Shown here one piece after another: positions 39,409-51,008 of a stretch of DNA of 64,000 bases; position 1 is the first letter of the stretch; the number at the start of each line of letters is the position of its first letter. Made by a program: the position numbers and the translations under genes. Location: assembly GCF_016793485.1 (NCBI RefSeq), contig NZ_JAEULZ010000010.1:40232-104231 (forward strand), written 5' to 3'. The DNA is from Mesorhizobium sp. (GTDB lineage Bacteria; Pseudomonadota; Alphaproteobacteria; Rhizobiales; Rhizobiaceae). The notes below the pieces were generated by a model, which was given only the letters and a program-made list of their open reading frames with translations, did no database searches and was not told the DNA's origin.

Positions 39409-39671
39409 ACGGAGGATGTCCCATGCCTCCGGGCCACGGAGCCCTTCAGCTTAGTCGCGCACCCACCGGGCTCTCGGTGTCGAAGCGAACGTCCAATAAT
39501 AGCGACATGCGCGAGCACAGTACGCGCAGCCAAACGCCGCTGAAAAAGTTGACGGCGCGCTCCTCACCGCTATAAGCGGCAGTTGAGGAACCAAATAGTT
39601 GCAAATCGCGTAGCGAACGGCTTTTTCGGGACAGTCCGCCAAAGCTCAATTGTGCGGTTTTTCAACTCGTT

Positions 39672-39761
<90 letters not shown>

Positions 39762-39787
39762 CTTGCCCCCGCGAAAGCGTTCTCCCG

Positions 39788-39811
39788 ATCCGGCTGCGGC
39801 CGGATTTTTTT
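39788..39811 (+). terminator. rho-independent terminator after tRNA-Ser
   Basis: The stem ATCCGGC/GCCGGAT with loop TGCG is followed by seven T residues, 26 bases after the tRNA. Confidence 0.85.
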
Positions 39812-40029
39812 GTTGTTTTCGGGGGTTATGCGGGATGGGCTGTCAACTGGCCCGGGTGTCAGCGAGGCTGAATGCGGTCTCTCAGGGCGGTTGTTCTCTG
39901 GACCCGTCAACCACCCCCAAATAGTTCAGCGGGTTAAACCTATGATTTCGTTCACCTAAAATGCTAGTTGTGCGGCAACCGTTCTCGAGTTCCATTCGCA
40001 TGCAAAGCGGACCGTGATCCAACCCCGCT

Positions 40030-43000
40030 TCATCCATTCGCCTCAGGTTCCCCTTGGGTCAGCGTATGCTGGGAAGTGGCACGGCTGCCGCTGTTCTGAG
40101 CCTCAGCCGAGGTGTTGAGCTTGCGATAAGCCTCCGAAGACAGCCAACCAGTCACGACCTTCTGGAACGATTTGTCGTTCATAAACCGCGCGAAGATCTC
40201 CTCGTTCTGATCCATGCGTTCAACGAACAGCGCCTCAAGCAGGTTCTTAAAGACGAGTTCAAACTTGTCGCCAGGATTGACGGCCGCCGCCTGCCTCAAA
40301 GCTGCATCGGAGATCGCTGCTTCTACGATCTGGTCAAAGAAGAGCTGATCCGCCTGATTGAAGTCAGTACCGAACCGGTCGTTGACGACATCGATGAGCC
40401 GCGACAACGGAACCGCTTCCTCGTGCAGCACACCGCTCCCAACCTCGGACGGGCCATCAAGCCTGTTAGCCTGGCCATCGCTCAGGCTGATCGAGCCTTC
40501 GCTAATCTTCTGCAACCGGTAGTATTCGAGCCGTACCTCGTCATCGAACTGGTAGGACGGGCCAGCGCCGCGCTTCGGCAGCTTGGTCGCGAGATGCCGC
40601 AGGAACACGTACAGGCGTTCGAGGTCGGTGTCCTGATAAGGAATGATTTGGCTTAGGAACCCATAGAGGCTGCAGAAGGCCATAAGCTTACCGCGCCAAA
40701 GCTCGGCCTCGTCGGTTTTGACCTGCTGAAGCTCTTTGAAACGGGCAACACACGGATCAAGTGCAGCATTCATCAACTGATGATCGTTCGGGCTCTGGCG
40801 CTGGCGAGGCTTGAAATAGACGGCGCTGAAGCAGTCAACGTCCGCGATGACATAGATGCCCTCGGCGTCGAGTTCGCTCTTGATCTCGTACATTCGGGCC
40901 GGATCGACGTCCTCGCCGACCTCCGCGCCTTCGAAATAGGTCTTGAACGCCTCGCGGATTTCATCGCGCTCGTTGACGAAATCGAGGACGAAGGTGTCCT
41001 CCTTCAGGGGGTGGATTCGATTCAGGCGAGACAGCGTCTGCACCGCCTGGATGCCGGCGAGCCGCCGGTCGACATACATCGTGTGCAGCAAGGGTTGATC
41101 GAAGCCGGTCTGGTATTTCTCGGCGACGAGCAGCACTTGATATTCCTGTGTGGCAAAGACCTCCGGCAGTTCCCTTTCACGGACGCCGAGGTTCATGCCC
41201 TCCTCCGTGTAGGCGACATCCTTCAGCTTGTCGTCCGTGACTACGCCTGAGAAGGCCACCAGCGATTTGATGGCATAGCCCTTCTCCTTCACGTAGCGAT
41301 CGAAACTTTGCTTGTAGCGAACGGCCTCGAGGCGCGAGCCCGTCACCACCATGGCTTTGGCACGGCCACCGATCTTGTGCTGGGTAGCGGCGTGGAAATG
41401 CTCGATCATCACCTCGGTTTTCTGGGCGATGTTGTGCGGATGCAGCTTAAGGAACCGCGCCAGGGCGCGTGCCGCCTTCTTCCGCTCGACGTTCGGGTCC
41501 TCCTCGCTCTCCTTGAGTAGCCGGAAATAGGTCGCATAGGTCGTGTAGTGCTTCAGCACGTCGAGGATGAAGCCTTCCTCTATCGCTTGGCGCATCGTGT
41601 AGCGATGGGCAGGCTTGCCGTCGCGCCCAAACACCTTGAGCGTCTTGTGTTTCGGTGTTGCAGTGAACGCGAAGAAACTGAGGTTTGCCTGCCTTCCGCG
41701 TTTCGCCATGGACCGATAGAGCTCGTCCATGGCGTCCTCGTCATTCGCGGCCATGGCTCGCGCAGCCTCTTCGCGAAGGCCTTGCCCGCCGAGAACTTCC
41801 TTCAGGTCGGTTGCCGTCTCGCCGCCCTGCGAGCTGTGCGCCTCATCAATAATCACTGCACAGCGGCGCATCTTCAGCACACCACCGTCGGCCTCGCCTC
41901 GTTCTTCGGCGATCTTGGCCAACTGACGCGAGACGAATGGAAACTTCTGAAGGGTGGTTATGATGATCGGTACGGCGCTTTCGAGTGCCTCCGCCAGCTG
42001 GCGCGAGTTCTCGTCAATCTTCTGGACAACGCCGTGCTTGTGTTCGAACTGGTAGATCGTGTCCTGTAGCTGCTTGTCCAGGACCACGCGGTCAGTGATG
42101 ACGATCACACTATCGAAAACCCGCGCGTTCACGTCGTCATGCAGCGATGCAAGCCTGTGGGTCAGCCAGCCGATGGTGTTGCTCTTTCCGCTGCCGGCCG
42201 AGTGCTCGATCAGATAGTTGTTGCCCACCCCTTCTCTTAGCGCTTGCTCGACCAGCGACCGGACCGCTTCAAGCTGGTGGTAGCGCGGAAAGATCATTGT
42301 CTCCTTCTTGACCCTTCGCCCTTGGTCGTCGCGCTTATCTTCGATCTGGAGATGGATAAAGCGCGCGAGGAGGTCGAGCAGACTGTCTCGCTGCAGCACC
42401 TCTTCCCACAGATACGCCGTACGGTAGCCGCGCCCCTTGCGATCGGGCGCATTACCGGCGCCACCGTTGTTGCCCTTGTTGAAGGGCAGGAAGTGGGTGG
42501 CCGCACCTGCAAGCCGCGTGGTCATGAACACCGTGTCCGTGTCGGCCGCAAAGTGGACCAGCATACGCCGCTTGAACTCGAAGATCGGCTCGCGCGGGTC
42601 GCGATCATGCCGGTACTGGTGCAAGGCGTGCTCGACCGTCTGTCCTGTCATCGGGTTCTTGAGTTCGACCGACACAACGGGAATGCCATTCACGCTCAGT
42701 GCGACGTCCAGCGACTTTTCGGAAGTTCTCGAGAAGTGCAACTGCCGCGTGAGCCCGACCCGGTTGGCTGCGTAGCGAGCTTCCAGCTCCGGGTTCAGCC
42801 CATGCGCCGCCTTGAAGAATGCCACGCGCAGGGTCTTGCCGTAGCACTTGAAGCCGTGACGTAAGGTGGCCAGAGAGCCTTCTCGGTCCATCCACTTGGT
42901 CAGATCGGCAAGGACTTGCGCGCCGGTCTTTTCCCCATGGAGTGCCTCCAGAGCTTTCCATTCCTTCGGCTGTGTGTCGCGGATGAAGGTAAGAACGGTC

Positions 43001-43122
43001 TCGGGGAAGATGGCGCGATCACGGTCGAACCCTGACGCAGGTTCCGGCAAGGCACCATTCGCCAGCATAGTGGCTTCGATGACGGTTTCGAATGCGCCTT
43101 CTGAATGCCTAGCGTGGTTCAT
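40030..43122 (-). CDS. hsdR: type I restriction endonuclease subunit R (HsdR)
   Basis: A 1030-residue motor and nuclease subunit. The PD-(D/E)xK-type nuclease core appears at SLDVALSVNGIPVVSVELKN (near residue 150). The SF2 motor shows Walker A in HSAGSGKSNT near residue 312, IIDEAH near 430 and SFFAFTATP near 485, followed by the second RecA lobe and a helical C-terminal part that binds the methylase. With HsdM and HsdS it translocates and cuts unmodified DNA. It lies 11 bases after ptuB, unusually separated from hsdS by the Septu pair. Confidence 0.95.
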   Translation of the reverse strand: MNHARHSEGAFETVIEATMLANGALPEPASGFDRDRAIFPETVLTFIRDTQPKEWKALEALHGEKTGAQVLADLTKWMDREGSLATLRHGFKCYGKTLRVAFFKAAHGLNPELEARYAANRVGLTRQLHFSRTSEKSLDVALSVNGIPVVSVELKNPMTGQTVEHALHQYRHDRDPREPIFEFKRRMLVHFAADTDTVFMTTRLAGAATHFLPFNKGNNGGAGNAPDRKGRGYRTAYLWEEVLQRDSLLDLLARFIHLQIEDKRDDQGRRVKKETMIFPRYHQLEAVRSLVEQALREGVGNNYLIEHSAGSGKSNTIGWLTHRLASLHDDVNARVFDSVIVITDRVVLDKQLQDTIYQFEHKHGVVQKIDENSRQLAEALESAVPIIITTLQKFPFVSRQLAKIAEERGEADGGVLKMRRCAVIIDEAHSSQGGETATDLKEVLGGQGLREEAARAMAANDEDAMDELYRSMAKRGRQANLSFFAFTATPKHKTLKVFGRDGKPAHRYTMRQAIEEGFILDVLKHYTTYATYFRLLKESEEDPNVERKKAARALARFLKLHPHNIAQKTEVMIEHFHAATQHKIGGRAKAMVVTGSRLEAVRYKQSFDRYVKEKGYAIKSLVAFSGVVTDDKLKDVAYTEEGMNLGVRERELPEVFATQEYQVLLVAEKYQTGFDQPLLHTMYVDRRLAGIQAVQTLSRLNRIHPLKEDTFVLDFVNERDEIREAFKTYFEGAEVGEDVDPARMYEIKSELDAEGIYVIADVDCFSAVYFKPRQRQSPNDHQLMNAALDPCVARFKELQQVKTDEAELWRGKLMAFCSLYGFLSQIIPYQDTDLERLYVFLRHLATKLPKRGAGPSYQFDDEVRLEYYRLQKISEGSISLSDGQANRLDGPSEVGSGVLHEEAVPLSRLIDVVNDRFGTDFNQADQLFFDQIVEAAISDAALRQAAAVNPGDKFELVFKNLLEALFVERMDQNEEIFARFMNDKSFQKVVTGWLSSEAYRKLNTSAEAQNSGSRATSQHTLTQGEPEANG

Positions 43123-43133
43123 GCTGAATTACC

Positions 43134-43748
43134 TCAAAGTTTCTGCCGCAGAAACCAGATCGCTACTGGACTAAACGGCTGATACTCCGCCGCGTTGTTA
43201 CGAAAATTGATCTGTTGTTGGGCCTTCTGTCGAGCGTTCGGTGTGGATCGCCACCACTGCAGTACGGAATCCAGTACGGCCTTCCGACTACTTTTCAAGT
43301 AGCCGAAATTCAGACCTAGAACCTGAGTCAATTGTATATTGAATTCCTCGTCCGTGCTTACAACTGTGCCGTCGGCGAGGTACTTCAGCCTTGATTCAAT
43401 AGCATGAGCGGCGTCTGCCGGATTCAATTTGAGATCATGATTAGCCTTCCTGGTGTCGCAGTGCTGTTCGGCCGGAGACTTCCCTTCACCGCCAAGGCAT
43501 GCGCCAAGCAGGTTTCCGTAGGCGAGCTGTTGATGGGGATAGTTCGTTTGACATTGCCAGTGTTCGATCTTCATTGCGGTCGACACCGAGCGAATACGTC
43601 CGGTGCAGTAACAGCAAAGGCCCTTTTGCTCGCTGACCAGCGCGGCTCGGAGGTCGTCTTTCTGGGCATAGTTGTCGTAGTCGCTGTGCGCCTGAGCCCG
43701 ATGCTGCGTGAGACTGTTTGGCTCGGCGCCCTTAGTGATCATCCTCAC
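43134..43748 (-). CDS. ptuB: PtuB-like HNH nuclease (Septu effector, TIGR02646-like)
   Basis: A 204-residue HNH-fold protein of the TIGR02646/PtuB type. The core is [11 protein letters not shown] (CxxC ligands), then MKIEHWQCQ with the first conserved His, [10 protein letters not shown] and a final HCDTRKAN element. PtuB is the nuclease partner of the Septu ATPase PtuA and is thought to cleave DNA once activated. It overlaps ptuA by 4 bases and is followed by hsdR. The upstream frame could start one Met later (MRM). Confidence 0.82.
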
Positions 43749-45064
43749 GCATCCCCCTCCAGGAAGTCGAGAAGGGTTTTGGCGCGCGTTATCTCAGGAT
43801 CATCATCTCCGATCTCCGCGGACAACTTCTTGATTGCTGCTCGTGCTTCCTCGGCTTTGCCGTCACCGATGAGCCTGGCGATATTTCCGATAGCGTCCTC
43901 GACACCTGCGTTGCGCGATCTTGTGCCCATGACCTCTTCGAGAACACGGCTAGAGTCGATTCCAAAAGAGCGCGACGGTGAGTATACCTTGCCCTCCGTG
44001 ATCATCTGAATCTTGTCGTGCGCGACTTCGCCAATAACCTGCGGTGAGTGCGTGGTGGCGATGAACTGGCAGTTCGGAAAAGTTTTTTCGAGATTGCCTA
44101 CGATCTTGCGTTGCCATTGCGGGTGAAGGTGGAGGTCGATCTCGTCGATAAGGATCACGGCTTCTGCGCTGGTCAGCGGATCATCAATCCGAGGGTTCGC
44201 CTGCGCGAGTCGTTTCGCGATATCCAGAATAAGCGCCAATACGGAGCGCTCGCCATCCGACAGCTGGCGTACATCAAGTGTGGTACCGTTGATGTCGATC
44301 TCGACCCGTGAAGCGCTTTCACCTGATGGCCGCAAGTTCGAATAGCCAGGCAGAAAACGCTCAAGCGCCATACTGATCCCATCAACCAGATGCCGCGAGG
44401 TGGGGCGTTCAGAAGCCAGTTCGATCTGGGCGCGCAACCAGTCCGCAAACTGGCGGAGGCTCAGGGTGTTCGACTGGAGCGCGTTTACATAGGCAAGCTG
44501 GCTCGTCCCGGCTGCCGACTTCCGTTCTGCTTGCTCGTTCATGAGCGACCGGGCGGTGGAGTAGTGGATCATCAACGGCGCGCTGGCTTCGCTAGTTGCC
44601 CGAGCCTTGAGTTCGTTCTTTGACGGATAAAAGAAGACGGGTTCTGCGGGTGAGACTGTTTCCTGCAACTCTCGCAGCTGGTTGCGAAGACGGTCCCTTG
44701 GGCGTGTGGTTTCGAGTATTCTCCGTCGCAACTGCTCGACATTCTCCATGTTATCTGTAGCGAATTGGGTCCGCCATTCACGTAGACGAACAAACCCGTC
44801 AGCCTCATCACTGAAGCTAAGGTACAGCGCTGCCTCGGCGAAGGGAGCGTTTCCATGAATGTCATGAGCGTCGAAACCGAATGCTCTGAACGGCATTTTC
44901 TGAACTGCAGACAAAATATGCGAGCCGCTGAATCGGATCGCATCTAGCGCCGTACTCTTGCCCGCGCCGTTTATTCCTATGATCAGATTGAAGCCAGGAT
45001 TGAATTCAAATTCGGCCTCTTTAAAGGCCCGCACGTTATCAAGTGAAAGCCGACTTATTTTCAT
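43745..45064 (-). CDS. ptuA: PtuA-like AAA/ABC-type ATPase (Septu sensor)
   Basis: A 439-residue SMC/ABC-like ATPase. Residues 1-50 carry [13 protein letters not shown] and the Walker [14 protein letters not shown]. The signature is [20 protein letters not shown]; Walker B is [16 protein letters not shown]; the switch His is [12 protein letters not shown] coiled middle region (roughly 100-190) separates the lobes. PtuA ATPases assemble with PtuB and respond to phage-associated nucleotide changes in known Septu systems. It overlaps hsdS upstream and ptuB downstream by 4 bases each. RloA-like R-linked ATPases are the main alternative name. Confidence 0.82.
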
Positions 45065-46335
45065 ACCGCCTCCGGGATCTCGAGCTGGCCGGTCACAGCG
45101 GCTGCGATCAGGGCTGCGCGGCGCTCTTTCAGCAGGGCGATGGAGTTCTCGATCGCGGTGCGCAGGCGGTCGATCTTGGTGGTTTCGGCGCTGATGTGCT
45201 CGACGATCTGTTGCTGTTCATCCAGCGGCGGCACGGGCCACCAGGTCTCAAAGAAACCCTCGGGGTAGAGCCGCAGGCGCGAGGACCAGACGCCTTTGGA
45301 GTAGCGGGTTACTTCCTGAGCGAACACGGGGATCCTGACCAGCGCATCGACGTAATCGGGCAGCAAGCGCGGACCTGGGGTGTAGACGTTGTAGGCGGGG
45401 CTAACGATGCCATCGACGCGGGCCGTGCCCATGGCACCCATCCAGGCCCAGAGGGTGTTGATGGCCAGGTCCCCGGCGAAGCACAGCTTGTAGCCAGCCG
45501 TGCTTTCGGCCTCGAACATGTTCACGTCCTTCTCGGACCGAGGGGTGACGCCGGTCAGGTGAGAGACCGTCAGCATTTCCTCTTCGCCGGTCTGGGACCG
45601 CTGGTCGCGTTCGGTGAACAGCCAGCGGGAGCGCTCCACTTCCCAATGCGCGGGGATGTCGCCGAGCCAGTCAGTGCCAGAGGGACGCAATGGGGTCGAA
45701 GGGTCGAGGCCGCGCATGACGGCCTCGGCCACAATGGCGCGCCGCTTCTCGGCCATCAAATCGAGCAGCTTCTGCTTGGCGGCGATCAGGGCGTCGATGT
45801 CGGCGGTTTCGCGGTTGAGATGTGCTACGATGCCTTTCTGCACGTCGATTGGTGGCAGCGGAATCTCGGTGGACGCCATGAGATCATATTCGATGCTCTC
45901 TACTGTCGCGCCTTCTTTGCTCCATTGCCTCAATAGTTCTGTCTGAAAACCGCGGATCAGGCAGGCCAGAAATCCAACCTCCAGACAATCGTGCGGCAAG
46001 ATCGCGCGCATGTCTTGGTTGAGCGCGACTGGAACAAGGTTCACTGCCACCGGAATTGAGTGACGCAGAATTCCTGAGCGGACGACAATCAATGCCGCGC
46101 CAGGTTCCACTAGATTGGTGGCGCTAGAGTTCAGACCCTCGGTGGTGATGTGGTCCTCTGTGTCGAGGATTTCATCAGTCTTCATGTCCTTTGGCGAAAC
46201 CCAGGGGATGTCGCCATTCCAGAACTCTTGCTTAGACTTGTCTGGCGTTCCGCCACCAACAAAATCTGCCACGTACTTGAGCTTTTTTCGTCTCCAGCCT
46301 TCCGGCGCAGTATTGAACCAAGTGGTGTCAGTCAT
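45061..46335 (-). CDS. hsdS: type I restriction specificity subunit S (HsdS)
   Basis: A 424-residue DNA-recognition subunit with two target recognition domains. TRD1 starts [17 protein letters not shown]; the central conserved helix is [23 protein letters not shown]2 begins [15 protein letters not shown]; and the distal conserved helix [16 protein letters not shown] is followed by [13 protein letters not shown]. The two halves define a bipartite target that cannot be read from sequence. It overlaps hsdM and ptuA by 4 bases each. Confidence 0.93.
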
Positions 46336-48335
46336 TCCGTCACCTCCTGCAGGAGCCTCAGGATTTCGTCCTCCGCACTCTTCAGGTCCGCGTCGATCTC
46401 GGTCAGCCGGCGGGGCGGCGTGAACTGATAGAAGTGGCGGTTAAAGTTGATCTCGTAGCCGACCTTGTCCTTGCTGCGGTCCATCCAGGCATCCGGCACA
46501 TGCGGCAGAACCTCACGCGCGAAGTAGGCGTCGATATCCTCTTTCAGGGGCACGTTCTCGAAGTCGCGCAGGTCGGGGTCGGCCTCGAAGCCCTTGCCGT
46601 CCTTGACGCGCTCGGCATCCGCGTCCTTTTCGGTGAACACGTTGCGGAACAGCTTGACCTCCGGCGCGCGCCATCGGGACTCGCGCTTTTTCAGCAGCTT
46701 CTCGATGCTGCCCCAGACCTTGCTCCAGTCCAGTTCCGGCTCGCGCCCCAGCGCCTGGTCGATCGCCTGAATATCGTCGAGCAGATGGGGTGCCGCGTCG
46801 AGGAACCGGGCCTTGTCCTCCACCGTCATCCGGTAGCGCAGCCGCAACGGACGCTCGACGGTGACGCGGGTGTAGCCGAATTCGGCGTTGTCGAAGATCT
46901 TGGACTTGGCGTTCTGGGCGTAGCCACCGTAGAGCCGCACGATCTCGGCGATCTGATCGGGTTCGTCCGGGCGATCATCCCCTTCTGGTGCCTTGCCCGC
47001 ACCGATCTTGCGGCGCTTGTCGCCCTGGCTGCGACCCATCGGCATCCAGATGTCGCGCGCGTCGACCAGCTGGATGGTGCCCTTTCGATGGCCGGGCTTG
47101 TTGTTGGTGACGATCCAGATGTAGGTGCCGATCCCGGTGTTGTAGAACATCTGTTCCGGCAGTGCGACGATGGCCTCGAGCATGTCGCGTTCGATGATCC
47201 ATTTGCGGATGTTGCTTTCGCCACCGCCTGCGCCGCCAGTGAACAGTGGTGAGCCGGAGAACACGATGGCCGCCCGCGAGCCGTACTTCTGCGCCTTGGG
47301 ATCGACCTCCTCGAACTTCGAGATCATGTGCTGCAGGAACAGCAGGGAACCGTCATTCACGCGCGGCAAGCCTGCGCTCCACGGGCTGTCCTGCGGGGCC
47401 TTCTCGTGCCGCCGGACGATTTCCTTTTGCTGCTTCTTCCAGTCCACGCCGAAGGGCGGGTTGGCGATGAAGTAGTCGAAGGTCTGTCCCTCGAACTTGT
47501 CGTCGGTGAAGCTGTCGCCGTACTGGACGTTCTCACCGCCGCCGTTGTGGTCAACCTGCTTCATGAGCATGTCGGATGCGGCCGTCGCGAAGGCCCTCTT
47601 GTTGTAGTCCTGGCCGTAGACGTAGAGCTTCGCTTCCTTGTGGTGGTCGCGCATGTAGCGCTGCGCCTCGGCGAGCATGCCCCCCGTGCCGCATGCCGGG
47701 TCGAGCATGCGCATCACCGTGCCGGGCTTGCTGAGCACGTCGTCGGCTTCCATGAAGAGGAGATCGACCATGAGGTGGATCACCTCGCGTGGCGTGAAGT
47801 GATCGCCCGCGGTCTCGTTGGCCAGTTCGTTGAAGCGCCGAATAAGGTTTTCGAATACAAGGCCCATCTGATCGTTCTTCACCCGGTCGGGATGAAGGTC
47901 GACCTTCAGGAACTCCTTGAGCACGAGGTATAGGATGTTCGCCTCGTTCATCTTCTCGATTTCGTTGGTGAATTCGAAATACTCGAAGATCCTGCGAACG
48001 TTCGCCGAGAAGCCACTGATGTAAGATTGAAGGTGACCCGCGAGGTTCGGGGTATCGCCGATCATCGTCTGGAACGTCATTGGCGAACGATTGTGGAAGC
48101 GGTGCCCGGATGCCTTGTTCAGAATCCGGTCGAGAGCATCATCCTCCAGCTTCCCACCCTTGCGCCGCTCATACTCCGCCAGAACCTGGTCCTTGGTATC
48201 GGCCAGCACGCAATCGAAGCGGCGCAGAACGACCAGCGGCAGCATGACGCGCTCATACTGCGGCGGGCGATAGGGCCCGCGCAGAAGGTCCGCGATCTGC
48301 CAGATCAAGTTCGCCAGGTCCGAGTGGCTTGCCAT
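46332..48335 (-). CDS. hsdM: type I DNA methyltransferase subunit M (HsdM)
   Basis: A 667-residue N6-adenine methyltransferase. The N-terminal HsdM helical domain precedes the SAM motif MLDPACGTGGMLAEA (near residue 213) and the catalytic NPPF motif in FDYFIANPPFGVDW (near residue 290). The C-terminal third is long and contains a coiled region for HsdS contact. It starts 46 bases after the antitoxin-like gene, on the same strand. Confidence 0.95.
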   Translation of the reverse strand: MASHSDLANLIWQIADLLRGPYRPPQYERVMLPLVVLRRFDCVLADTKDQVLAEYERRKGGKLEDDALDRILNKASGHRFHNRSPMTFQTMIGDTPNLAGHLQSYISGFSANVRRIFEYFEFTNEIEKMNEANILYLVLKEFLKVDLHPDRVKNDQMGLVFENLIRRFNELANETAGDHFTPREVIHLMVDLLFMEADDVLSKPGTVMRMLDPACGTGGMLAEAQRYMRDHHKEAKLYVYGQDYNKRAFATAASDMLMKQVDHNGGGENVQYGDSFTDDKFEGQTFDYFIANPPFGVDWKKQQKEIVRRHEKAPQDSPWSAGLPRVNDGSLLFLQHMISKFEEVDPKAQKYGSRAAIVFSGSPLFTGGAGGGESNIRKWIIERDMLEAIVALPEQMFYNTGIGTYIWIVTNNKPGHRKGTIQLVDARDIWMPMGRSQGDKRRKIGAGKAPEGDDRPDEPDQIAEIVRLYGGYAQNAKSKIFDNAEFGYTRVTVERPLRLRYRMTVEDKARFLDAAPHLLDDIQAIDQALGREPELDWSKVWGSIEKLLKKRESRWRAPEVKLFRNVFTEKDADAERVKDGKGFEADPDLRDFENVPLKEDIDAYFAREVLPHVPDAWMDRSKDKVGYEINFNRHFYQFTPPRRLTEIDADLKSAEDEILRLLQEVTE

Positions 48336-48381
48336 GTCGTTCAGTCTCCTGCCGGTTTGTCCGGTTTGTTGTTCTGTTGGA

Positions 48382-48585
48382 TCAGTCGTCTTGTCCGGCG
48401 CGCTTGTCCGATGCGGCAGAAGCCAGCTGCTTCTTCGCCTTTGCCGTCAGCCGCTCGAATTCTTCAACGGCAAGCACCACGACGACAGACCGGCCATACT
48501 TCTCGATGGCGACAGGCTCCGCCCTCGCCATGTCGATCAGCCGCCCAAAGGCGTTCTTGGCATCGCGCGCCGACATGCTTTGCAT
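48382..48585 (-). CDS. Phd/YefM-type antitoxin without visible toxin
   Basis: A 67-residue Phd/YefM-family protein. The SARDAKNAFGRLIDMARAEPVAI segment with the later VVVVLAVEEFERL helix is typical of the DNA-binding N-terminal domain of such antitoxins. No RelE/Doc-like toxin frame is found next to it. It lies directly upstream of hsdM in the same orientation, so it might act as an autoregulator of the defence operon, or be a remnant of a toxin-antitoxin pair. Confidence 0.75.
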   Translation of the reverse strand: MQSMSARDAKNAFGRLIDMARAEPVAIEKYGRSVVVVLAVEEFERLTAKAKKQLASAASDKRAGQDD

Positions 48586-48644
48586 GATGAGCTCCTCCCC
48601 GAGTTGGAGCTACTTTAGCCAAGATGTGAGATGATGGATAGACG

Positions 48645-49046
48645 CTAACGTGCTGAGCCAAATGCCGAAGACATCGCCCGTTGCGCTTCCCAATCCGATG
48701 GAAAATCCGCTTGCAAGGCCGCTCTAAGGAACTCAGTTTCGTGCCACCCCGCGAGCGCGCCCTCCACGATGTCGGGAGCCAAAAGGGTCAGGCGGAGGAT
48801 GCGCGCGAGATATGTGGTGGAGATCCCCTCCTTGCGTGCAAGTTCTGACACGGTCGAAAACTCACCCGTGTCGAGGAGTTGCTTCCAGCGGAACGCTCGG
48901 GCCAGTGCCTTGATGACCGTTGCGGGTGGTTGCCGCGGGACAGTCTTTCCGGCGGGCACGAGCATCTCCTTCCGCCCGCCGCGCTTCACGATGCGGAACG
49001 GCACGTGCAACGTGACGGTGTCGGGAATCGGCGCGCTGCGGGTCAT
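48645..49046 (-). CDS. HTH-containing protein of recombinase cassette
   Basis: A 133-residue protein that starts MTRSAPIPDTVTLHVPF. It contains KRGGRKEMLVPAG and then a helix-turn-helix-like segment FSTVSELARKEGISTTYLARILRLTLLAPDIVE (residues about 64-96), similar to ParB/KorB-type DNA-binding turns. I recognise it only as a frequent companion of this alphaproteobacterial recombinase. It overlaps the recombinase stop by 4 bases. A role as recombination directionality or DNA-binding factor is inferred. Confidence 0.65.
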   Translation of the reverse strand: MTRSAPIPDTVTLHVPFRIVKRGGRKEMLVPAGKTVPRQPPATVIKALARAFRWKQLLDTGEFSTVSELARKEGISTTYLARILRLTLLAPDIVEGALAGWHETEFLRAALQADFPSDWEAQRAMSSAFGSAR

Positions 49047-50368
49047 GCGGCCTCTCTGTCGTTCGAAGCCCGCATTTCGCGGTAGAGACTCCCGAGGCCA
49101 TCAACGCGGAGCCGGACGTTGAGCCCGTCAGAGCCGATGTCCACGCGCTCGACCAGCAGCGCCACGATGCGCGCCTGCTCGGCAGGGAATAGTTCGTCCC
49201 ACAGCGGGTCGAGCTGCTGAAGCGCTGCCCGTGCGTCGGCCTCGGTGATCTCCTCGTCATGCGCCCGAGCCGCTCTCAACGTGCCCGCCACGATCTCGGG
49301 CTGGCGAAATACGGCGCGAAGCTGGTCGATCACGGCGGCCTCGATCTCCCCCGCAGGCACGCGGCCGACCGGGCACGACCCCGCGCCATGCTTCAGCACC
49401 GTCTGGCTGACGTAGTAGCGGTAGAGCCTATCGCCCTTGCGCGTATGCGTCGGGGAGAAGGCCGCGCCATCTGGGCCGAACAGCAGGCCCTTCAGTAGCG
49501 CAGGCGTGTCGGCACGGGTGCGTGCAGCGCGTTTGCGAGGACTCTCCTTAAGGATGGCGTGGACCCGGTCCCACGTTTCACGGTCGATGATTGCATTGTG
49601 CTCGCCGGGATAGCTGTCGCCCTTGTGGACTGCCTCGCCGATATAGGCGCGGTTGTTCAGCATCCGGTACACATACTTCTTGTCGATCCGGTTGCCCCGC
49701 GGGGTGCAGATGCCGCGCGTGCTGACCTCCCTCGCCAGTTTCGTGCAGGACCCGACCTCGAGGAAGCGTGCGAAAATCCAGCGCACATTCGCGGCGCTCT
49801 CCTCGTCGACCAGCAGCTTGCGGCTGTCGACGCGATACCCGAGGGGCGGCACGCCCCCCATCCACATCCCCTTCTTGCGGCTGGCCGCGACCTTGTCGCG
49901 GATGCGTTCGGCCGTTACTTCCCGCTCGAACTGGGCAAAACTGAGCAGGATGTTCAGCGTCAGCCGCCCCATCGACGTGGTCGTGTTGAACGACTGCGTC
50001 ACCGAGACGAAGGTGACCCCGTTGCGGTCGAACACCTCCACCAGCTTGGCGAAGTCGGCGAGCGAGCGGCTCAGCCGGTCGATCTTGTAGACCACCACCA
50101 CGTCGACCAGCCCGTCCTCGATATCCTCCAGCAGCCGCTGCAGGCCGGGCCGCTCCAGCGTCCCGCCCGAAATGCCGCCGTCGTCGTACTGATCGCGGAC
50201 CAGCACCCAACCCTCGGACCGCTGGCTGGCGATGTACGCCTCGCAGGCCTCGCGCTGGGCATGCAGGCTGTTGAATTCCTGCTCGAGTCCCTCCTCGGAG
50301 GATTTCCGGGTGTAGACCGCGCAGCGCAGCTTGCGGACGACCTTCAATTTTTCGGGGGGCTTCGTCAT
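49043..50368 (-). CDS. large serine recombinase/integrase
   Basis: A 441-residue serine recombinase. The resolvase domain includes YTRKSSEEGLEQEFNSL with the catalytic Ser (near residue 20), YDDGGISGGTLERP, VYKIDRLSRS and FEREVTAERIRDKV. The recombinase domain has GVPPLGYRV and MLNNRAYIGEAVHKGD. The zinc-ribbon position LLKGLLFGPDGAAF lacks the usual cysteine pairs; only one CPVG cysteine follows. This subtype is common in rhizobial and rhodobacterial mobile elements. It is the probable integrase of the element. The ATG overlaps the DUF2924 stop by 4 bases. Confidence 0.9.
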   Translation of the reverse strand: MTKPPEKLKVVRKLRCAVYTRKSSEEGLEQEFNSLHAQREACEAYIASQRSEGWVLVRDQYDDGGISGGTLERPGLQRLLEDIEDGLVDVVVVYKIDRLSRSLADFAKLVEVFDRNGVTFVSVTQSFNTTTSMGRLTLNILLSFAQFEREVTAERIRDKVAASRKKGMWMGGVPPLGYRVDSRKLLVDEESAANVRWIFARFLEVGSCTKLAREVSTRGICTPRGNRIDKKYVYRMLNNRAYIGEAVHKGDSYPGEHNAIIDRETWDRVHAILKESPRKRAARTRADTPALLKGLLFGPDGAAFSPTHTRKGDRLYRYYVSQTVLKHGAGSCPVGRVPAGEIEAAVIDQLRAVFRQPEIVAGTLRAARAHDEEITEADARAALQQLDPLWDELFPAEQARIVALLVERVDIGSDGLNVRLRVDGLGSLYREMRASNDREAA

Positions 50369-50817
50369 GTCCGCCCCCTGTGGTTCTTGAGCCCGAAGAA
50401 CACCCAGCCGTTCCAGCGCGTGCCCGTAATGGCGCGGGCGATAGCGGACAGCGACTTGTAGGGGCGACCCTGCCATTCGAATCCATCGGCGGTGACGGTG
50501 ACGATCTGCTCGACGCCCTGCCACTCGCGCAGCAGCCGCGTGCCCGCTATCGGTTTGAGGTCGGCACGGATGCGGCGGGTGGTAATATTGCCGCCATCAA
50601 GCTGCTCGCCGAGGGCTTCAAGGCGCCTCACCGTCTCGGGCTTCAGGCCGCCGTAGGCGAGTTCCTGGATGCGGTATGCCAGCCGGCTCTCAAGGTAGCG
50701 GCGGTTGAAGGCTGGCGGCTCCGTCTCAAAGAGTTCGCGCCACTGCTGTTTCAGTTCGGGAGTCGGCGTGGTCTTCAGCGCCGCGAGGCGCGCGGGGATC
50801 GGATCGAGATTGGTCAT
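50365..50817 (-). CDS. DUF2924 protein of recombinase cassette
   Basis: A 150-residue DUF2924 protein. Landmarks are LKQQWRELFETEPPAF with RRYLESRLAYRIQELAYGG and the C-terminal block KPIAGTRLLREWQGVEQIVTV, SAIARAITGTRWNGWVFFGL. The last part looks like a DNA-contacting winged segment. Function is unknown; the family is found next to serine recombinases. GGAG precedes the ATG and it overlaps both neighbours by 4 bases. Confidence 0.85.
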   Translation of the reverse strand: MTNLDPIPARLAALKTTPTPELKQQWRELFETEPPAFNRRYLESRLAYRIQELAYGGLKPETVRRLEALGEQLDGGNITTRRIRADLKPIAGTRLLREWQGVEQIVTVTADGFEWQGRPYKSLSAIARAITGTRWNGWVFFGLKNHRGRT

Positions 50818-51008
50818 GCGTTGCTCCGCTGAGTTGCGGTTGCATGACGGCATTGGTCTGACGACAAGTGTAGGCAACTTTCTCCAATATGGTCAGAGAC
50901 TTCCCTCTGCTCACGCATGCGCAGCCGGACGAGCCCGCGGCCGAGAATCGCGCAAAGTGCTGAGCGGCGCTCAGCTGGGCTCATTCGGTCCGGGGAAAGT
51001 GGATTCAT
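50814..51008 (-). CDS. 64-aa protein heading recombinase cassette
   Basis: A 64-residue small protein beginning MNPLSPDRMSPAERRSALCAILGRGLVRLRMRE. Its stop overlaps the DUF2924 start (ATGA), which argues that it is real and translationally coupled. The AERR, ILGRGLVRL helix resembles short helical proteins in other recombinase loci. The tail is rich in Ser, His and Cys without a clear fold. Function unknown. Confidence 0.6.
   Translation of the reverse strand: MNPLSPDRMSPAERRSALCAILGRGLVRLRMREQREVSDHIGESCLHLSSDQCRHATATQRSNA

Follow-up and report, generated by a model that had tools for sequence, protein, structure and literature searches.

A Septu-type ptuAB pair nested in the hsdS-hsdR gap of a clade of type I restriction-modification operons

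Introduction

In EcoprrI, a type IC restriction-modification (R-M) enzyme, the gene of the anticodon nuclease PrrC lies between hsdS and hsdR. PrrC is held in the EcoprrI complex, its gene being embedded in the type I operon, and is released on T4 infection (PMC3874165). Activation follows from inhibition of EcoprrI by the T4 protein Stp, and the account given in PMC12707154 names PrrC and PARIS as guardians. Here, we describe a stretch of 64,000 nucleotides from Mesorhizobium sp. (contig NZ_JAEULZ010000010.1, positions 40,232 to 104,231; hereafter the window), in which a Septu-type gene pair, ptuA and ptuB, is nested between hsdS and hsdR of a type I R-M operon. We refer to the space between these two genes as the seat.

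A first-pass annotation of this DNA had compared the arrangement with R-linked genes that act as back-up systems of restriction. Its parallel with PrrC is apt, as prrC is embedded in EcoprrI and PrrC fires on Stp inhibition (PMC3874165, PMC12707154). Its listing of RloA and RloB as back-ups is not borne out by the sources consulted: PMC10440598 states no more than that the RloB family is found in type I operons, and the guardians named in PMC12707154 are PrrC and PARIS. As for the nested pair itself, the PtuAB proteins of retron-Eco7 and of the Septu system EcB88 are reported to cut tRNA-Tyr (PMC11555353, PMC13096335). In the literature searched, which was incomplete and does not prove absence, we came across no report of ptuAB lying within a type I operon, of an HsdR clade that bears PtuAB, or of a two-part exchange of ptuAB.

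Operon organization and gene identities

According to the coordinates of the open reading frames (ORFs), the genes phd, hsdM, hsdS, ptuA, ptuB and hsdR follow each other in this order, all on the minus strand (Table 1). There are 4-base overlaps at the hsdM/hsdS, hsdS/ptuA and ptuA/ptuB junctions, a gap of 11 bases between ptuB and hsdR, and one of 46 bases between phd and hsdM. The order, the overlaps and the 11-base gap agree with the first-pass annotation.

Pfam matches of Phd, HsdM, HsdS, PtuA and HsdR all exceed the Pfam cut-offs. A Pfam search with PtuB at 0.01 gave no family, and the protein passes the NCBIfam model TIGR02646 with 62.9 bits (cut-off 52.15). Matches to NF041760 (retron PtuA), NF041761 (PtuB), TIGR00497 (HsdM) and TIGR00348 (HsdR) fall below the cut-offs of these NCBIfam models. 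Among solved Septu/retron PtuAB chains, PtuA matches PDB 8ee4 and PtuB matches PDB 8ee7 in sequence. The AlphaFold2 model of PtuA, with a mean predicted local distance difference test (pLDDT) score of 84.6, matches PtuA of the retrons Ec83 and Eco7 as well as E. coli PtuAB (8eea).

PtuA is an ABC-type ATPase with Walker A, signature, Walker B and H-loop motifs. Residues E62, H63 and N79 of PtuB are invariant in 22 aligned proteins, the HsdR motifs ELK, GSGKS and DEAH are present in all 25 aligned HsdR proteins, and the HsdM motifs DP(A/T)CGTGG and NPPF in 23 of 23. Because these motifs are present and conserved across aligned relatives, both the type I enzyme and PtuAB look functional, as judged from their sequences. 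The locus combines a Septu pair, that is, a PtuA-related ABC-type ATPase with a TIGR02646/PtuB-family HNH nuclease directly downstream, with a type I set of HsdM, HsdS and HsdR that has the catalytic motifs.

Two other assignments were rejected. A retron would require a reverse transcriptase, which is missing: the hsdS-hsdR gap holds ptuA and ptuB alone, and no reverse transcriptase domain was present in the nine proteins scanned. An Hma-embedded Septu does not apply to the window either, where the neighbours are hsd genes. No toxin partner of Phd was recognized among the neighbouring proteins of the window scanned by Pfam.

Recurrence and retention of the nested pair

The order hsdS-ptuA-ptuB-hsdR was found in 25 loci from Pseudomonadota, Acidobacteriota, Cyanobacteriota, Gemmatimonadota and Chloroflexota. 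The first-pass annotation had proposed to look for this order elsewhere and had named a single occurrence as grounds for refutation; the 25 loci show that this does not apply. hsdM is present in 23 of these loci; in the other two, L036 and L051, the contig ends first. The 25 loci comprise the window, 13 loci from a PtuA scan, two IMG/VR contigs (L005, L169), a conjugative plasmid of Ketogulonicigenium vulgare (L006), genome G105 (L010) and seven genomes reached through HsdR. Duplicates were dropped (L168, on the same contig as L005; L001 and L012, copies of the window). From one scan of species genomes with a PtuA profile, 80 relatives were taken, the best of at least 543; 13 of these 80 sit between hsdS and hsdR (L013-L023, L036, L051), and two further ones lie in or beside other type I operons (L063, L090). 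In L018, hsdS consists of two overlapping ORFs, and in L019, L020, L119 and L172 the seat holds extra sequence or genes besides ptuAB.

Since loci found through PtuA carry ptuAB by construction, the rate has to be estimated from HsdR-led samples, which drew on searches for HsdR in 385 genomes belonging to the class and 398 belonging to the phylum. The HsdR relatives split into two sets, of at least 67% and at most 56% identity. In the closer set, ptuAB occupies the seat in seven of eight genomes, not counting the window. The more distant set has ptuAB in none of 51 loci, many of which have other cargo or an empty seat; in four of the 51 (L127, L132, L137, L185), hsdS was not found or not clear. 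L200 and L203 have weak ATPase matches elsewhere than in the seat (3e-5 and 1e-11, respectively), which were not scored as ptuA. One HsdR listing held 55 places, of which 36 were fetched, one was the window, three had already been sampled and 15, all with at most 50% identity, were left out.

An HsdR tree of 76 rows, excluding L123 (pieces under 600 amino acids), unites the 25 ptuAB loci and L173, the eighth genome of the closer set, in one clade with a Shimodaira-Hasegawa-like approximate likelihood ratio test (SH-aLRT) support of 100, and the 50 rows outside are without ptuAB. The ptuAB label changes twice on this tree, compared with 21.3 times when shuffled, a comparison in which the rows found through PtuA carry ptuAB by construction. 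A one-off insertion or an artefact is ruled out by the recurrence in 25 loci and by the single HsdR clade. The spread over five phyla within this clade also bears out the first-pass view that the pair did not merely land beside the operon. Outside the clade, hsdR is split by stops or frameshifts in L175:2970-6008 and L123:1438-4501; given these broken genes, some of the outside loci may have lost restriction.

Seen from PtuA, the picture differs. At an E value of 1e-30 or better, PtuA occurs in 14 of the 385 genomes of the class sample, at 20 places (two G640 rows counted as one): four in this type I seat, one in an Hma-like operon (L235) and 15 elsewhere, meaning without an hsd or Hma match in the stretch fetched, which for L230, L231, L238 and L243 was a short contig or a contig end. 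Within the family of the window, PtuA at 1e-20 was found in 3 of 297 genomes: the genome of the window and G105 have the pair in this type I seat, and G188 has it in an Hma-like operon. Septu usually sits elsewhere, yet this HsdR clade nearly always carries ptuAB. In the comparison of nested with lone pairs suggested by the first-pass annotation, nesting accounts for a minority of PtuA places (4 of 20).

On plasmids, HsdR matches were found in 761 records (50 listed) and PtuA matches at 1e-40 in seven; among the matches listed, PtuA adjoins HsdR only in four K. vulgare records. The HsdR search of viral contigs gave only two loci, one of them the second copy of L005.

Some further arrangements of ptuAB were noted. 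In L011:4351-16330 (G188) and L235:4606-16135, both Hma-like, ptuAB lies between a helicase gene and DUF1156/DUF499 genes, and these nestings also have a 4-base overlap at ptuA. Hma itself has three components, a helicase, a methyltransferase and an ATPase, to which the DUF1156 and DUF499 names belong. In L063:3103-11716, a CBASS-like CD-NTase gene (SMODS and AGS_C) followed by ptuAB lies between hsdS and an hsdR-like ORF that is cut by the contig end and matches HsdR weakly (4e-5). Two cyanobacterial seats hold a pair of small ORFs (83 and about 140 amino acids) beside ptuAB (L019:11200-11867, L020:8214-8887); the larger ORF of each gave no PADLOC match at 1e-5.

Modular exchange within near-identical operons

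To describe the exchange of parts, six operons were compared (window, L005, L006, L013, L170, L171), whose HsdR proteins share 85-96% and whose HsdM proteins share 82-96% identity. PtuA was divided into a front (residues 1-330) and a tail (345-end). Between the window and L170, HsdR and HsdM are both 96% identical, while identity is 37% for the PtuA front, 26% for the tail and 31% for PtuB. DNA identity drops to about 35-60% at the start of ptuA and is back to about 90% inside hsdR. L013 shares the front with the window (77%) rather than the tail (33%) or PtuB (26%). L171 shows the reverse pattern, with 38% for the front, 78% for the tail and 77% for PtuB. The switch point is the conserved junction segment given in Table 1, and the tail behind it is modelled as helices 371-378, 386-400, 404-418 and 423-438.

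A comparable pattern is seen in hsdS: between the window and L170, DNA identity is 42-57% in both recognition segments and 85% in between, and the window diverges from L005, L006, L013 and L171 in the first recognition segment only. The PtuA front and the unit of PtuA tail plus PtuB are thus exchanged separately, like the recognition domains of HsdS. These mosaics rule out a strict co-evolution of the whole of PtuAB with HsdR.

Mantel tests, from which L036 and L051 were excluded (no HsdM on the contig), agree with this division. In 17 loci, tail and PtuB distances correlate with r = 0.953 and front and PtuB distances with r = 0.094 (117 of 1000 permutations as high); in 23 loci, the values are 0.871 and 0.214 (9 of 1000 permutations as high). 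In the same 23 loci, the PtuA front correlates with HsdM at 0.626 and with HsdR at 0.551, compared with 0.291 and 0.317 for PtuB, whose comparisons are limited by saturation.

Phylogeny of PtuA and PtuB

In a tree of 92 PtuA rows, the 25 nested proteins and L069 form one starred group, and the deep order resembles the HsdR tree in outline, within the limits of a quick tree method, long branches and the odd letter make-up of some rows. L069:4198-10910 (Acidicapsa) has genes for a DUF6094 methyltransferase, a helicase, PtuA and PtuB close together on one strand. Separate trees of front and tail (91 rows each, without L037) give different results. In the tree of the front (residues 1-338), 24 of the 25 nested proteins form an exclusive clade with an SH-aLRT support of 99, and the remaining one, L036, stands apart with L069. 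In the tree of the tail (346-end), the nested proteins fall into three groups of 5, 6 and 14 members with supports of 80-93. The PtuB tree (75 rows) places a class I nested group of 14 members behind starred branches together with stand-alone PtuBs and the other 11 nested ones outside, and its starred branches force two changes of the nested label. PtuB thus occurs in deeply separated types, one of them common to nested and stand-alone Septu.

The exclusive clade of the front, the scattered PtuBs and the closer fit of the front distances to HsdM and HsdR suggest that it is the front which is tied to the seat, and that the tail with PtuB is a putative exchangeable nuclease head.

Upstream site and flanking region

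Thirteen of the 25 nested loci, including the window, have a phd gene in this position. All 13 have the sequence GGCTA(A/T)A(A/G)T(A/G)GCTYYAA before the conserved phd start, with one mismatch in L016 and none in the other 12; the longest ORF extends over this site in L013, L015 and L023. Of 205 loci, 13 match the site; these include L012 and L168, which duplicate the window and L005, respectively. With up to one mismatch allowed, the site occurs once in the 5.2-Mb genome. We propose Phd as a putative repressor of the operon, acting through this candidate operator.

Upstream of phd, genes for a DUF2924 protein, a large serine recombinase and a 133-amino acid ORF precede the operon in the window, L005, L010, L118, L170 and L171. 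At the other end, a tRNA-Ser(gga) gene lies about 1.2 kb past hsdR in L010, L118 and L171. The HsdR proteins of L010 and L118 are nearly identical, and the two loci come from different families. No attachment repeat was found at tRNA-Ser: blastn with window positions 39640-40000 against the window, and with the corresponding side of L010, L118 and L171, yielded nothing beyond matches of chance size. In L016 (Roseovarius), a tRNA-Thr gene (L016:5160-5235) lies just upstream of phd, so tRNA genes other than that of tRNA-Ser may also serve the unit as landing sites.

Table 1. Features of the nested operon and its surroundings (positions in the window)
Feature	Position	Strand	Remarks
hsdM, type I methyltransferase	46332..48335	-	667 aa; HsdM_N + N6_Mtase; PADLOC PDLC03029 4.3e-255
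hsdS, specificity subunit	45061..46335	-	424 aa; Methylase_S PF01420
ptuA, Septu ATPase	43745..45064	-	439 aa; AAA_21; PADLOC PtuA1 PDLC00271 1.2e-120
ptuB, HNH nuclease, class I (CCYC...EHW...HCD)	43134..43748	-	204 aa; PADLOC PtuB1 PDLC00322 7.6e-72
hsdR, restriction/translocase subunit	40030..43122	-	1030 aa; HSDR_N + SWI2_SNF2
phd	48382..48585	-	67 aa; Phd/YefM family; PF02604 PhdYeFM_antitox 2.5e-11
PtuA front module, residues 1-338	44051..45064	-	swaps independently of tail
PtuA junction segment THSPQVIGE, residues 338-346	44027..44053	-	conserved; mosaic switch point
PtuA tail, residues 347-439	43745..44026	-	exchanged together with ptuB
Candidate Phd operator GGCTAAAGTAGCTCCAA, core GCTA-AAG-TAGC	48604..48620	-	upstream of conserved phd start
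133-aa ORF between recombinase and phd	48645..49046	-	28-80% relatives in L005, L010, L013, L118, L169, L170, L171
Large serine recombinase	49043..50524	-	Resolvase, Recombinase, Zn_ribbon_recom; 61-87% relatives in L005, L010, L118, L170, L171
DUF2924 protein beside recombinase	50365..50877	-	PF11149 3.2e-52; relatives in L005, L010, L118, L170, L171
tRNA-Ser(tga)	39672..39761	+	268 bases past hsdR end of unit

Discussion

That ptuAB is kept in place while its parts are swapped suggests that the pair is a working part of the restriction machine and not a chance neighbour. Starting from the gene order, its retention in one HsdR clade, the mosaic, the conserved upstream site and the intact motifs, we propose that a composite type I R-M/Septu system may travel as a single unit, in which the type I enzyme would have PtuAB as its built-in, normally silent effector. 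The front of PtuA, consisting of the ATPase core and a variable inserted region, would act as the adaptor tied to the HsdMSR complex or to its activity, and the tail would hold PtuB, the nuclease head. Once restriction is engaged but failing, as when a phage inhibits or bypasses the enzyme, the brake on PtuAB could be lifted, and the released PtuB would cut a vital nucleic acid (tRNA, or DNA) and thereby stop the infected cell. Phd bound to the upstream site may keep the whole operon low. Recombination would exchange the recognition domains of HsdS, the PtuA front and the PtuA-tail/PtuB head, generating new specificities and nucleases against changing phages. We give somewhat less than even credence to this reading, which sees in PtuAB a latent effector backing up the type I enzyme, its adaptor fixed and its nuclease head replaceable. 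A guard role is preferred because of the precedent of PrrC in EcoprrI and because of the PtuABs that cut tRNA-Tyr. A wider version, offered tentatively and as the less probable claim, is a combinatorial immune system: the HsdS domains, the PtuA sensor/adaptor and PtuA-tail/PtuB would be three cassettes on one scaffold, with PtuAB guarding against anti-restriction and the front lineage having evolved with the HsdR/HsdM clade before its spread over five phyla.

Several results weigh against such an effector role, and some of them would fit another explanation, in which the gap between hsdS and hsdR is a landing seat for defence genes and an independent Septu gains co-mobility and co-regulation there, neither sensing nor needing HsdMSR. 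Unrelated defence cargoes occupy the same seat in other, related type I families, namely GmrSD (L130:5598-7421, L187:6200-7924), DarG (L136:9919-10959), PDC-S11 (L126:9938-10912), HNH_2 (L202:9259-10629) and Schlafen AlbA_2 (L177:6044-7936); two further seat ORFs (L203:8791-10212, L122:10448-11035) gave no family in a Pfam search. Even within the HsdR clade, ptuAB is replaced in L173, where the seat holds IetAS (L173:3913-7522; PADLOC IetA 1.4e-147, IetS 7e-302). Its sister on the HsdR tree, L172, has two cargoes stacked in the seat, ptuAB and beside it a gene pair that matches the IetAS of L173 in sizes and order (L172:4566-8181; 332 and 874 amino acids) and from these features is probably IetAS. 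The authors of PMC12255303 call the site a potential recombination hotspot. The free exchange of ptuAB parts is also what an independent passenger would allow, and near-free exchange among operons with 82-96% identity in HsdM and HsdR argues against a tight one-to-one fit to HsdR. No clear block specific to the ptuAB-bearing HsdRs was found along HsdR, residues 451-475 and 851-875 being mild candidates. A single origin of the nested label is enough for the starred branches of the tail tree. Homologous recombination that depends on flanking hsdS and hsdR could alone explain a closed pool. In 47 stand-alone Septus, the tail-PtuB correlation is 0.841 and thus not special to the type I seat, and the front-PtuB correlation is 0.577; therefore, the bond between tail and PtuB is general, and it is in the nested set that the front is uncoupled more strongly. 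When the tail is controlled for, the front-PtuB correlation is near zero in both (-0.057 nested, 0.068 stand-alone). Still, a plain hotspot leaves unexplained why one HsdR clade has the same cargo in seven of eight genomes, compared with 0 of 51 loci outside, and why one lineage of the PtuA front is almost exclusive to the seat. We regard this explanation as the main rival to a latent effector, and as somewhat less likely than it.

It is also conceivable that PtuAB acts downstream of successful restriction: PtuA would respond to stalling of HsdR, to nicks or to broken ends, and PtuB would then degrade the DNA that is left or shut down the cell. The occurrence of ptuAB in helicase/methyltransferase operons of the Hma kind would fit, as coupling to DNA motors may be general, and RloC, a relative of PrrC, is described as responding to DNA breaks (PMC3874168). 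One more Septu, according to PMC11555353, targets nicked DNA and not tRNA, which also counts against the guard reading. Against such a hand-over stand the two published PtuABs that cut tRNA, and we consider it unlikely. Misassembly or wrong gene calls can be taken as refuted: the 25 loci with this order come from many genomes, from a plasmid and from two IMG/VR contigs.

If PtuAB is indeed wired to HsdMSR as a latent effector, the idea embodied by PrrC would recur with a two-part effector and would not be an oddity of a single E. coli enzyme. PtuAB might then be a general nuclease head for DNA-sensing machines, among them the type I enzyme, Hma and the retron complex with its reverse transcriptase. 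Naturally occurring chimeras whose HsdM and HsdR are nearly identical are ready-made swaps for finding the part of PtuA that reads the partner and the part that holds the nuclease.

Comparison with known systems

The closest parallel is EcoprrI/PrrC. In both, the gene of an effector with an ATPase domain sits within a type I operon, and a latent effector that fires on restriction failure is what we propose for PtuAB by analogy; PrrC and some PtuABs also cut tRNA. PrrC is one protein, whereas ATPase and HNH nuclease are encoded here by two genes, and in PADLOC the ATPase is matched best by PtuA. Compared with other Septu systems, the pair is nested in a type I operon, its PtuA front belongs to a lineage almost confined to the seat, and this front swaps apart from the tail and PtuB. 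Type I-A retrons (Eco7/Ec78, Ec83) share the PtuAB effector pair, which there is complexed with a reverse transcriptase; no such gene is present in the operon of the window, and the partner would be HsdMSR.

The RptR-HsdM-HsdS-DarTG2-HsdR island of enteropathogenic E. coli (EPEC) resembles our locus in its small regulator, an embedded two-gene defence pair and a conserved upstream operator (PMC12255303). It differs in that RptR, not named there as Phd, binds TAGCTA repeats, and in that DarTG2 is a toxin-antitoxin system. 'Guilt-by-embedding' (Payne et al. 2024, preprint) likewise concerns defence genes nested in another defence system, with Septu in Hma as a cited example; in our case, a single clade of type I R-M systems is the host. 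Embedding of defence genes in type I operons is already known from PrrC and from DarTG2 between hsdS and hsdR; this lineage and its modular exchange appear to be new.

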